Assembly (NCBI GenBank): GCA_002688135.1
Contig: NZCD01000069.1
Span: 1-45,604 of the forward strand
DNA: 45,604 nucleotides
From: Parcubacteria group bacterium
GTDB taxonomy: Bacteria > Patescibacteriota > Patescibacteriia > Magasanikbacterales > GCA-002688135
Direction of reading: 5' to 3'
In this document: one piece after another, positions 10,221 to 39,638 of the stretch
How positions within the stretch are numbered: the stretch's first letter is position 1
Layout of the letters: each line of letters starts with the position of its first letter
Translations under genes and position numbers: made by a program
Notes under the pieces: generated by a model
What the model saw: only the letters and a program-made list of their open reading frames with translations
Database searches by the model: none
Told to the model about the DNA's origin: nothing

Positions 10221-10287
10221 TTGTCATTCCCGCGAAGGCGGGAATCCACAGAAGGAACCTGGATTCCCGCCTTCGCGGGAATGACAT
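10221..10287. repeat. Inverted pair of GGATTCCCGCCTTCGCGGGAATGACA repeats
   Basis: TTGTCATTCCCGCGAAGGCGGGAATCC ... GGATTCCCGCCTTCGCGGGAATGACA. Confidence 0.85.
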
Positions 10288-11546: not shown

Positions 11547-11673
11547 GTGTCATCCTGAGCGTTTGTTCTTAAGATCGTTTCATTTGAGCCTGTCCTCGCG
11601 AAGGCGGGGGAAGGATCTCGAGAGTATACTGAAACCAGACGGGATCCTTCGACTAAAACGCTCAGGATGACAC
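11547..11673. repeat. Inverted-repeat element with 18-bp perfect arms
   Basis: GTGTCATCCTGAGCGTTT (11547..11564) and its exact reverse complement (11656..11673). Confidence 0.85.
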
Positions 11674-19538: not shown

Positions 19539-19672
19539 AATTATGTGGATAAGCTGTGCTTATAGTGGATAAGTATCATTAATTTGGATTATATATGAGT
19601 ATGGTATATAGTTCAAGCGTTCTTTACTTAACTGGATTTCCGCCTTTGCGGGAATGACAAAAGGAGAGTTTT

Positions 19673-23805: not shown

Positions 23806-24033
23806 GCGATGCGTCAGTTTGTTGAACTATTTATACCGTTTTTGGTAGTTTAGAGCAATGTTTTTTTGTTGTAAATATGTTGCATCATAAGAAAATTAAT
23901 CCACATCAGAGTATTGACTTTTAGGGTAATTCGTGCTATACTATTGGCGTCTTTGAAGAGTCTTTCAAAGGCTTTTTTATTCGATATATATAGAGGAAAT
24001 AGAGGATTCTGATGGATTCCCGCTTTCGCGGGA

Positions 24034-24534
24034 ATGACAATTTATACTATGATTACTGACTTTATTATTCAGGCAACAGCTAAGGCATTAATGATTACTA
24101 CTGCCGCTTCAACGCTTCCTGTTGCTATTAATTCTACCCCTTCTGCGGTACAAGATGTGTCGCGTAGTTTTGGTATTGGGCAGCGCGTGCCCGATCCACT
24201 TCCGATTTCGGAAGAACGTGGCTATACCACATGGGTTGGTACGACTGCGTATTCATCTTCACCAGATCAAACTGACGATTCCCCATTTATTACAGCGAAT
24301 CAAACCGTTGTGCGTGATGGGATTGTTGCGGCAAATTTTTTACCATTTGGAACTCGTGTGAAAGTTCCAGAGTTGTATGGTGACAAAGAATTTGTTGTGG
24401 CGGATCGAATGAATGCGCGTTATTACAAAAAAATGGATTTTTGGATGCCTACTCGTGAGGCTGCGATGGCGCATGGGTATAAGTACGTCGAAATCGAAGT
24501 ACTTCCTCCGGCGCATAATATTGCGCGACAGTAG
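24034..24534 (+). CDS. 3D-domain (double-psi beta-barrel) secreted protein
   Basis: AYSSSPDQTDDSPFITANQTVVRDGIVAANFLPFGTRVKVPELYGDKEFVVADRMNARYYKKMDFWMP; alternative start at 24049. Confidence 0.8.
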   Translation: MTIYTMITDFIIQATAKALMITTAASTLPVAINSTPSAVQDVSRSFGIGQRVPDPLPISEERGYTTWVGTTAYSSSPDQTDDSPFITANQTVVRDGIVAANFLPFGTRVKVPELYGDKEFVVADRMNARYYKKMDFWMPTREAAMAHGYKYVEIEVLPPAHNIARQ

Positions 24535-24575: not shown

Positions 24576-25142
24576 GTTTATTTTTATTTCATTATTTTTT
24601 ATTATTATTGTACTCTATGAAAGCTTTATTTTGTCACAGTAAATTTCTTGCATTGCTTTTTCAAAAAAGCAACAAAAACCTCGCGCCACGTTCTGTTTTG
24701 GGCTCACCTTGTTTTTTCAGACTAATTTTCAAACTCACTCTCGGGCCTAACACACACAAAACTTTGACCAATCCCCGCCTACGCGGGGATGACAATCTAT
24801 AATTGAGGCTCGTCTTTATGGATCCCGGCCTACGCCGGGATGACAATTTTTAGTAGCTCTCGCTAAAGTTTCAAAACTTATTTGAAGAATTGATCACTCA
24901 ATCTGAAAATTTGTGATCAAAAGTCTTGTGCGCGCTAGACCCTGCGTTCAAACAGTGAAAATTAGTATCTGAAAAAACTGCGTTTCGCTGATCCAAAACG
25001 CCACTATGCGCGGCGGCTATCGCCGACTTATATGCTGCTATCGCAGATTTTTATTGTTTTTATATGGTTTGGTTGACAAAGGGAGGTTTTGTGCTTACAG
25101 TTAATAGTGCTCGTTGATAATTGATTTTTTTAGGAGGGTAGC

Positions 25143-27389: not shown

Positions 27390-27497
27390 TGTTTGAGGTG
27401 GTAATATCAGTGAGTAGTTTATAGTGAGTAGTGAGTAGAATTTTAATAATGTGGATCCTGGATCATGTCCGGGATGACAGTTTCTATCGGCTCCGAT

Positions 27498-30170
27498 ATG
27501 AATTCTAACAAGACATTGGTTTTGATTGATGGGAACGCGATATTGCATCGTGCGTATCATGCATTGCCGCCGATGAGTACTAAGGATGGGATGTTGGTGA
27601 ATGCGGTGTATGGGTTTTCGTCTCTTTTGTTGAAGATTATGAATGACATTAAACCAGAAGGTTTGGTGTGTACTTTTGATTTGCCTGGGGGGACGTTTCG
27701 AGATGAGATTTATCCAGAATATAAAGCGACGCGTGAGAAGAAATCGCAGGAGTTGTATGATCAGTTGGATCCGATTAAAGATGTGTTGGATGCGTTTGCT
27801 ATTCCGTGGTTTGAGAAAGAGGGGTATGAGGCCGATGATATTATTGGATCGATTGCAAAACAGGTGACGAAAAAAAATAAGGACTGGAAGGTTCTCATTG
27901 TGACTGGAGATTTGGATGAGTTGCAGTTGGTGGATGAGCGGATTAATTTATATATGTTGAAGAAGGGGATTTCGCAGGTACAGATTTATGATGAGGTTGC
28001 TGTGCATGAAAGGTATGGTTTGACTCCGGATGAGTTGATTGATTATAAGGCTTTTAAGGGTGATCCATCTGATAATATTAAGGGTGTTGCTGGGATTGGA
28101 GATAAGGGTGCTACGCAATTGATTCAGAAGTTTGGTTCGGTTGAGGGCGTTTATAAGGCTTTGGGTGATGATGGTTTGGAGGGGTTTTCTGATGGGGTTG
28201 CGAAAAAAGTTCGTGAGGGGGAGGATAGTGCGAAGTTATCGAAAGAGCTGGTGACTATTGTTTGCGATTTAAAAACAGATTTTGATTTGAAGGATTCGTA
28301 TCTTCATGATTTTGAGTTTGAGGATGTTGAGAAGGTTTTTCGTGGTTTGGAATTTGGTTCACTTTTGTCGAGGGTTCCTGGTTCGAAAGTTGCGCCGGTG
28401 CGAGCTTCTTCAGCTGGATTTACGATTATTCCGCTTGAGGTGAATGTTGATCAGAAGGATTGGAAGGAATTTATTGGATTGTGTGAGAAGCAAAAGCAAT
28501 TGATTGTGTTTTTACATAAAGCCGAGCAAGTTTCGATGTTTGAATCTGGGATTACGATAGGGTGTGTAGCAGGAAAAGAGGTTTATGTATTTGTTCTGAA
28601 TGATGCGCGACGTAATCAATTGTTGGATACTATTTTGGAAAAAAATATTAGGTTGGTTGGTTTTGATGTGAAGCGAATGTTTCATGAATTGGATGTTGAT
28701 GATGTATCAGGATTTGTGATTGATGATGTTATGTTGTTGGAGTATGTTTTGCATGCTGGGCGGCAAACGACATTATCGAATGTGTTGTTTCAGTATGCTG
28801 ATGTACAGATTGGATCCCCGCTTTCGCGGGGACAAGGCAAAGTTCCGACGAATGTTGCGCAGTATGTTGCGAATATTGTGGAGGGTGTTGGTGTTGCGCA
28901 TGATGCATTGCGAAAGGAGATTTCAAAACATCCGTCAAAGAAAATTGTAGATGATATTGAGTTGCCTTTGTTGCCGGTTTTGTATGCTATGGAACGTGCT
29001 GGGGTTTTGTTGGATGTTGAGGAATTGTCGAAGTTGCATGATGTAGTTGTGAAAGATATAGAGAAATTGAAAAAGAAAATGTATAAGGCTTGTGGGGTTG
29101 AGTTTAATATTTCGTCGCCATCGCAGTTGAAGGATGTTTTGTTTGAGACTTTGCAGTTGCCGACGCAAGGAATTAAGAAAGGGAAAACAGGGTATTCTAC
29201 AGCAGCTTCAGAATTGGAAAAGTTGCGAGGAATGCATCCGGTTATTGAAGATATTTTTGTGTATAGGGAATTGTCGAAATTACAGTCGACTTATATTGAT
29301 GCGTTGCCGAAGTTGGTGGCGAGTGATGGGCGTGTGCATACAACATTTGCGCAATCGGTTACTTCTACAGGGCGATTGGCATCTCTTAATCCGAATTTGC
29401 AAAATATTCCGATGCGTACAGAACGAGGGCGTGAGGTGCGCGCGGCGTTTATTCCAAAGGATGGTTTTGTATTATTGGCGGCTGATTATTCGCAGATTGA
29501 GTTGCGATTAGTTGCGCATATTTCGAAGGATAAAGAATTGACTCGCATATTTCGCGAAGGTGAGGATGTTCATACAGCGACTGCGGCAAAGATTCATGGG
29601 ATTCCAATTGAGAAAGTTACCAAGGATATTCGACGAACAGCGAAGGAAGTTAACTTTGGAGTTTTGTATGGAATGGGGTCGTTTGGCTTGGCGCAACGCA
29701 CGGGAATCTCACGAGTTGAGGCTGCGGAGTTTATTGAAAATTATTTTGATTTGTTTTCGGGCGTGAAAAAATATGTTGATGAGACGATAAAGCAAGCGAC
29801 GAAGGATGGATTTGTTGAGACCATGTTTGGTCGTCGTCGAGAATTGCCGGAATTATCGAGTGATGTTGGGATGGTGCGGAAGGCTGGCGAGCGCATGGCA
29901 GTGAATATGCCAACACAAGGTGCGCAAGCTGATATCATTAAAAAAGCGATGGTAGAATTGTATGAGGTTTTGGATGGAGAGGAAGATGAGATTAAGATGT
30001 TGCTGCAAGTTCACGATGAGTTGGTATTTGAAGTGAAAAAAGGAGAGGAGGAAAAATGGAGTAAGAAAATTAAGAGGGTTATGGAGGATGTAGTTAAATT
30101 ATCCGTGCCAATTATTGTTGATGTGCATGTGGGAGATAATTGGAGGGATATGAAAGAACTTCATTGTTAA
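27498..30170 (+). CDS. polA: DNA polymerase I
   Basis: MNSNKTLVLIDGNAILHRAYHALPP; GDPSDNIKGVAGIGDKGA; TGRLASLNPNLQNIP; DYSQIELRLVAHIS; LLQVHDELVFEV. Track start 27465 lies in a repeat. Confidence 0.97.
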   Translation: MNSNKTLVLIDGNAILHRAYHALPPMSTKDGMLVNAVYGFSSLLLKIMNDIKPEGLVCTFDLPGGTFRDEIYPEYKATREKKSQELYDQLDPIKDVLDAFAIPWFEKEGYEADDIIGSIAKQVTKKNKDWKVLIVTGDLDELQLVDERINLYMLKKGISQVQIYDEVAVHERYGLTPDELIDYKAFKGDPSDNIKGVAGIGDKGATQLIQKFGSVEGVYKALGDDGLEGFSDGVAKKVREGEDSAKLSKELVTIVCDLKTDFDLKDSYLHDFEFEDVEKVFRGLEFGSLLSRVPGSKVAPVRASSAGFTIIPLEVNVDQKDWKEFIGLCEKQKQLIVFLHKAEQVSMFESGITIGCVAGKEVYVFVLNDARRNQLLDTILEKNIRLVGFDVKRMFHELDVDDVSGFVIDDVMLLEYVLHAGRQTTLSNVLFQYADVQIGSPLSRGQGKVPTNVAQYVANIVEGVGVAHDALRKEISKHPSKKIVDDIELPLLPVLYAMERAGVLLDVEELSKLHDVVVKDIEKLKKKMYKACGVEFNISSPSQLKDVLFETLQLPTQGIKKGKTGYSTAASELEKLRGMHPVIEDIFVYRELSKLQSTYIDALPKLVASDGRVHTTFAQSVTSTGRLASLNPNLQNIPMRTERGREVRAAFIPKDGFVLLAADYSQIELRLVAHISKDKELTRIFREGEDVHTATAAKIHGIPIEKVTKDIRRTAKEVNFGVLYGMGSFGLAQRTGISRVEAAEFIENYFDLFSGVKKYVDETIKQATKDGFVETMFGRRRELPELSSDVGMVRKAGERMAVNMPTQGAQADIIKKAMVELYEVLDGEEDEIKMLLQVHDELVFEVKKGEEEKWSKKIKRVMEDVVKLSVPIIVDVHVGDNWRDMKELHC
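28812..28836. repeat. Palindromic intergenic repeat embedded in frame within polA
   Basis: GGATCCCCGCTTTCGCGGGGACAAG; cf. GGATTCCCGCTTTCGCGGGAATGACAA at about 24013. Confidence 0.75.
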
Positions 30171-39602: not shown

Positions 39603-39638
39603 ACTTTCTGGATTCCCGCCTTCGCGGGAATGACAATT

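Follow-up and report, generated by a model that had tools for sequence, protein, structure and literature searches.

An in-frame CGTC-type REP copy in a predicted disordered linker of a patescibacterial DNA polymerase I

A palindromic repeat is read in frame within polA

The window, by which we mean the whole 45,604-nucleotide stretch analysed, carries polA on the forward strand (27465–30170), delimited as an open reading frame encoding a 901-aa protein. Matches to Pfam families PF00476, PF02739 and PF01367 and comparison with PDB relatives identified the product as a genuine DNA polymerase I, comprising a 5'–3' nuclease, a degenerate 3'–5' exonuclease-like domain and a family A polymerase. 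The host was taken to be a patescibacterium from the names carried by the nearest outgroup PolA records. At 28812–28836 on the same strand, beginning with the first base of codon 450, lies a copy of a repetitive palindrome (REP), GGATCCCCGCTTTCGCGGGGACAAG, which is read in frame and encodes GSPLSRGQ, PolA residues 450–457. The initial annotation had described a palindromic repeat in frame in the exonuclease-like region of polA, and the sequence, the frame and the peptide are as it claimed, the region being that of the degenerate exonuclease. The copy includes the exact 14-base core CCCGCTTTCGCGGG, also found exactly at 24019, and forms a hairpin with a perfect 7-bp stem (TCCCCGC-TTTC-GCGGGGA), for which a transcript stability of −14 kcal/mol and a z-score of −2.9 were calculated. 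In an AlphaFold2 model of PolA (whole-model mean pLDDT 89), residues 446–459 were modelled as coil, and residues 455–457 had pLDDT values below 50. By block, residues 351–360 (pLDDT 58) and 451–460 (54) were both low-confidence coil.

Further copies are distributed along the window. An intergenic inverted dimer consists of a left half at 10222–10247 on the minus strand (TGTCATTCCCGCGAAGGCGGGAATCC as read on the plus strand) and a right half at 10261–10286 on the plus strand (GGATTCCCGCCTTCGCGGGAATGACA). Also on the plus strand are a diverged intergenic copy, GGATTTCCGCCTTTGCGGGAATGACAA (19634–19660), a copy between genes, GGATTCCCGCTTTCGCGGGAATGACAA (24014–24040), and an intergenic copy, GGATTCCCGCCTTCGCGGGAATGACAA (39610–39636), and an intergenic copy of a second subfamily, B, lies at 11586–11608 on the minus strand, where it reads CCCGCCTTCGCGAGGACAGGCTC and lacks TGA after the stem. 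A copy at 24771–24795 on the plus strand, ATCCCCGCCTACGCGGGGATGACAA, has a compensated stem in which T-A has become C-G as in the polA copy, with TGA retained. The intergenic copies listed in the initial annotation are all present (the inverted pair at 10229/10266 and the copies at 24019 and 39615), the last being a C/T variant, as are those at 10229 and 10266. Shortly after the 24771 copy, positions 24820–24850 hold GGATCCCGGCCTACGCCGGGATGACAATTTT, another REP variant that has a CCGG stem.

The repeat family resembles CGTC-1 REPs

On one strand, the consensus of the family is TTGTC-ATTCCCGC-GAAN-GCGGGAAT-CCA, corresponding to an element of about 25–27 bp, or about 65 bp as a dimer; pairs are often inverted, with 37–44 bases from start to start. 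The genome contains around 45 copies; they were examined in the sequence surrounding each match, a procedure that strongly diverged in-gene copies may escape. With at most one mismatch allowed, the 27-base consensus was present in 31 of 145 genomes drawn evenly from the phylum, at up to about 30 copies each, and the reversed control gave zero.

CGTC-1 REPs (Di Nocera et al. 2013, PMC3733652), among which are Neisseria dRS3 and Rickettsia RPE-6, are defined by a CGTC tag that is often changed to TGTC, 8-bp stems beginning with AT, 4-base loops and CCA tails, occur mostly as dimers and have no dedicated transposase (PMC3733652). The family described here shares the TGTC tag (consensus (T)TGTCATTCCCGCGAANGCGGGAATCCA, with CGTC variants found in the phylum), the stem, loop and tail (ATTCCCGC-GAAG-GCGGGAAT-CCA, an 8-bp stem with AT in positions 1–2) and the inverted dimers (contig:positions C21:750/789, C41:9410/9448, C53:19/57, C69:10229/10266 and C51:1840/1884), and it does not flank a RAYT-type transposase. 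Both families also occur inside repair and tRNA genes, the REP hosts named in other phyla including DNA polymerase I, TruB and tRNA synthetases (PMC3733652). Two differences were evident: the polA copy, whose reverse complement TTGTCCCCGCGAAAGCGGGGATCCA has the tag, loop and tail, has a stem of only 7 bp (TCCCCGC) without the outer A-T pair, and the five phyla in which CGTC repeats have been catalogued do not include Patescibacteria (PMC3733652). The analogy with Rickettsia palindromic elements (RPEs) drawn in the initial annotation is apt, given that RPE-6 counts among the CGTC-1 REPs and that in-frame copies inside conserved proteins occur here too, but the element is better described as a CGTC-type REP: RPEs of the RPE-1 type, as summarized in PMC2229807 from Ogata et al. 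2000, are palindromes of 105–146 bp read in frame inside conserved proteins, whereas the element here is about 25–27 bp.

Short palindromes and inverted pairs are also features of the GTAG REP/RAYT system, but the consensus here has no GTAG tag and the transposase is not flanked by the same REP. The sole Y1_Tnp match of the genome (C62:13772–14017) is flanked on both sides by other palindromes, of the ATCGACACTCGATGTCGA / ATCGACACTCGATGTCGAATCGACATCGA type, and the presence of Y1_Tnp did not obviously track that of the repeat across 57 relatives; mobilization of the repeat by a RAYT was rejected on these two grounds. In one relative, G047, Y1_Tnp matched partially 27 times, often at the ends of contigs, which suggests a multi-copy IS200-like element breaking the assembly. 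Earlier catalogues of intragenic REPs covered Proteobacteria and a small number of other phyla, and a literature search that did not span all journals found no earlier report of them in Patescibacteria/CPR. What is new is mainly the place of discovery; the element is ordinary in kind.

Origin of the polA copy

At up to two mismatches, the core matched seven times in the window compared with 0.07 matches expected, and the exact core matched 33 times in the genome and never for a reversed-pattern control. The palindrome pattern, with two mismatches allowed, gave 47 genome matches (two of which look unrelated by eye) versus one in the control. The core appeared in none of 20,000 codon-order shuffles of polA and in 4 of 20,000 synonymous-codon shuffles. 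On the window count, the reversed control and the shuffles, a chance match was rejected as the origin of the polA copy. That the segment is a chance or convergent coding sequence with no relation to the repeat family, as the GS and GQ at similar linker places in some relatives (for example, VGSGQESLFG) might suggest, is extremely improbable in the face of an exact 14-base core, the shuffles and flanking GGAT and GACA that also agree with the family.

The initial annotation held that the polA copy lacks exactly the TGA that would be an in-frame stop codon in its ancestor. Read against the TGA-bearing form, GGATCCCCGC..GCGGGGATGACAA, this is correct, but other parents are possible. Sister subfamily B, GGATCCCCG-TTTTC-ACGAGGACAGGCTC, which has about nine copies in the genome, natively lacks TGA; its copies end in GAGGACAGGCTC or GGGGGCAGGCTC, the intact end being GGACAGGCTCC. 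Aligned over 30 bases that include a 5' ATT and a 3' GGC, two subfamily B copies, ATTGGATCCCCGTTTTCACGAGGACAGGCTC, differ from polA by three substitutions and a single inserted base (score 21), and one of them reads IGSPFSRGQAP in the polA frame. Because subfamily B natively lacks TGA and reads IGSPFSRGQ in this frame, no stop codon need have been lost, and the exact loss of TGA was abandoned as a required step even though its absence relative to the standard type is real. A TGA-bearing parent would draw support from the score of 20 that the standard type, GGATTCCCGCTTTCGCGGGAATGACAA, attains against polA, from which it differs by a single substitution and a 3-base gap, and from the compensated-stem variant at 24771; entry of such a classic repeat as a net insertion of 8–10 aa followed by loss of exactly the in-frame TGA nevertheless seems unlikely to us, given the score and open frame of subfamily B and a net gain at the site that falls short of 8 aa. 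Judged from the alignments, subfamily B would be an equal or slightly better parent, with the two candidates nearly tied.

Lengths were compared among 49 same-order PolAs for the region bounded by the D.M motif and IE.PL. This region has 85 residues here, 83–85 in most same-order relatives (the mode being 84 in families that bear the motif described below), 80 in sister family f6 and 93 in one genome, corresponding to a net gain at the repeat site of 0 to about +5 residues. These lengths speak against the net insertion of 8–10 aa that the initial annotation had expected. A conserved ancestral loop of the same length, which it had set against its own reading, is found in part, in that most relatives have a region of similar length, but the GSPLSRGQ residues are not common to them. 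In a maximum-likelihood tree, the PolA of the window falls beside f6 (95/90) on a long branch (1.49); its nearest relatives are only about 47% identical and its own family, f1, is one genome. With these relatives, insertion and overwriting at polA appear inseparable, and simple insertion is not demonstrated. Overwriting, in which the repeat would have taken the place of an equally long linker, either through recombination or through insertion with later loss of adjacent codons, is conceivable, and we give it somewhat less than even weight. The 85 residues here against the mode of 84 fit such a replacement, as does the TruB loop with VIPAKAGIQ, where events may have been similar and which at 44 aa is as long as in several relatives; the net gain of five residues over f6 fits less well, as do the clear net gains in other hosts (RlmD, about +31; TrmD, +13 versus PDB relatives).

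A clamp-binding-like motif in the PolA linker of relatives

The linker of families f2, f4, f5 and f8 holds Q-x-[S/T]-L-F-G, with Q, L, F and G constant among motif bearers. A Q..LFG motif was present in 48 of the 49 relatives, in 44 of them in the linker and in 4 at position 355. This linker motif is conserved and similar in sequence to the bacterial clamp-binding consensus, QL(S/D)LF (PMC9690074), and on that likeness we infer that Q-x-S-L-F-G of PolA may bind the sliding clamp DnaN. In f6, the motif is QQDLFG (QQDLFA in one genome) and lies at position 355, not in the linker. The PolA of the window has no clamp-like motif in linker residues 446–459 and carries QVSMF at residues 355–359 (28527–28541, plus strand), the same alignment position as QQDLF of f6, in a predicted flexible loop. 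Since f6 and the PolA of the window have the motif in this other loop, the linker was probably free for the repeat, the motif probably having moved before the repeat arrived. The idea that the repeat destroyed a QxSLFG motif was dropped, as the tree groups this PolA with f6, which also lacks a linker motif and has it at 355. The shifting Q-x-S-L-F motif hints at a clamp tether in this group that is open to testing.

In-frame copies in other host genes

The initial annotation had proposed a search of the genome for other copies embedded in open reading frames, and this search returned about a dozen host genes, polA included. Seven hosts of in-frame copies score above NCBIfam equivalog cut-offs: TrmD, UvrC, RlmD, TruB, LeuS, DnaX and uL23. 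Such copies also occur in a UPF0020 methyltransferase, a ComEC-like hydrolase, one unassigned protein and a family-2 glycosyltransferase (GT2), the last of which contains both halves of an inverted pair. The favoured peptide reading of the repeat is VIPAKAGIQ, from the strand with all three frames open. In the structures of PDB relatives, gaps stand opposite the TrmD and RlmD copies; the TruB copy is length-neutral. Among four genomes of relatives examined, three had the element inside recognized genes: PheT, a ComEC-like protein and a MurC-like ligase in G038, TsaD (twice) in G019, and MnmA, a WecG-type transferase and a ComEC-like protein in G044. In the fourth, G055, the element was found only in one unassigned open reading frame.

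Discussion

We consider it quite probable that polA carries a single intragenic CGTC/TGTC-type REP in a disordered surface linker, kept since it does little harm. The repeat would have come to sit, by insertion or overwriting, in the surface linker of the degenerate exonuclease domain, where it would read as an open 8-residue peptide in a segment already relieved of a clamp-like motif, and it would have been retained because it is nearly harmless. The likeliest account of the polA copy is that of a stowaway tolerated by a disordered loop. The polA copy might instead be functional, its transcript hairpin or peptide modulating polA expression or PolA interactions, as its stable hairpin (z-score −2.9) and its position where relatives keep the clamp-like motif could suggest; we regard this as quite improbable, because the same element occurs in many unrelated genes and frames and the loop that it encodes here is predicted to be disordered.

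Around twelve core genes of this 1.05-Mb genome carry in-frame copies, and three relatives have them as well, which shows that genome reduction does not exclude such passengers; the copies also provide a natural insertion scan of the loops that essential proteins can dispense with. A broader proposal, which we advance tentatively and hold to be rather less probable than its negation, is that the permissive loops in which REPs of Patescibacteria settle within core proteins are repeatedly the same ones, the PolA linker being one vacated by a clamp-tethering motif. If REPs do revisit the same loops, short repeats would form a natural record of dispensable protein segments. The REP-bearing loops of LeuS, TruB and TrmD are possible insertion hot spots, and the LeuS loop that contains VIPAKAGIQ here contains VIPAKAGI also in L211, a genome of another family.

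Several minor observations concern loops of this kind. In a third genome, L227, the same LeuS loop has a segment resembling a different repeat, recognized by eye. More generally, loops that hold REPs here carry VIPAKAGI or repeat-like insertions (TCLPAGR, KKGGIRGLF, IASGAKQSQGIATSADANRLPRNDK) in other families, namely in LeuS of L211 and L227, TruB of L171, L173 and L178, and TrmD of L202. In UvrC (L012, G000:C39), repeat-like segments DPSAALGMTGATLGMTGTTFGMTGG and RRDPSTKTLRMTD occur besides the REP-encoded DSRIRGND.
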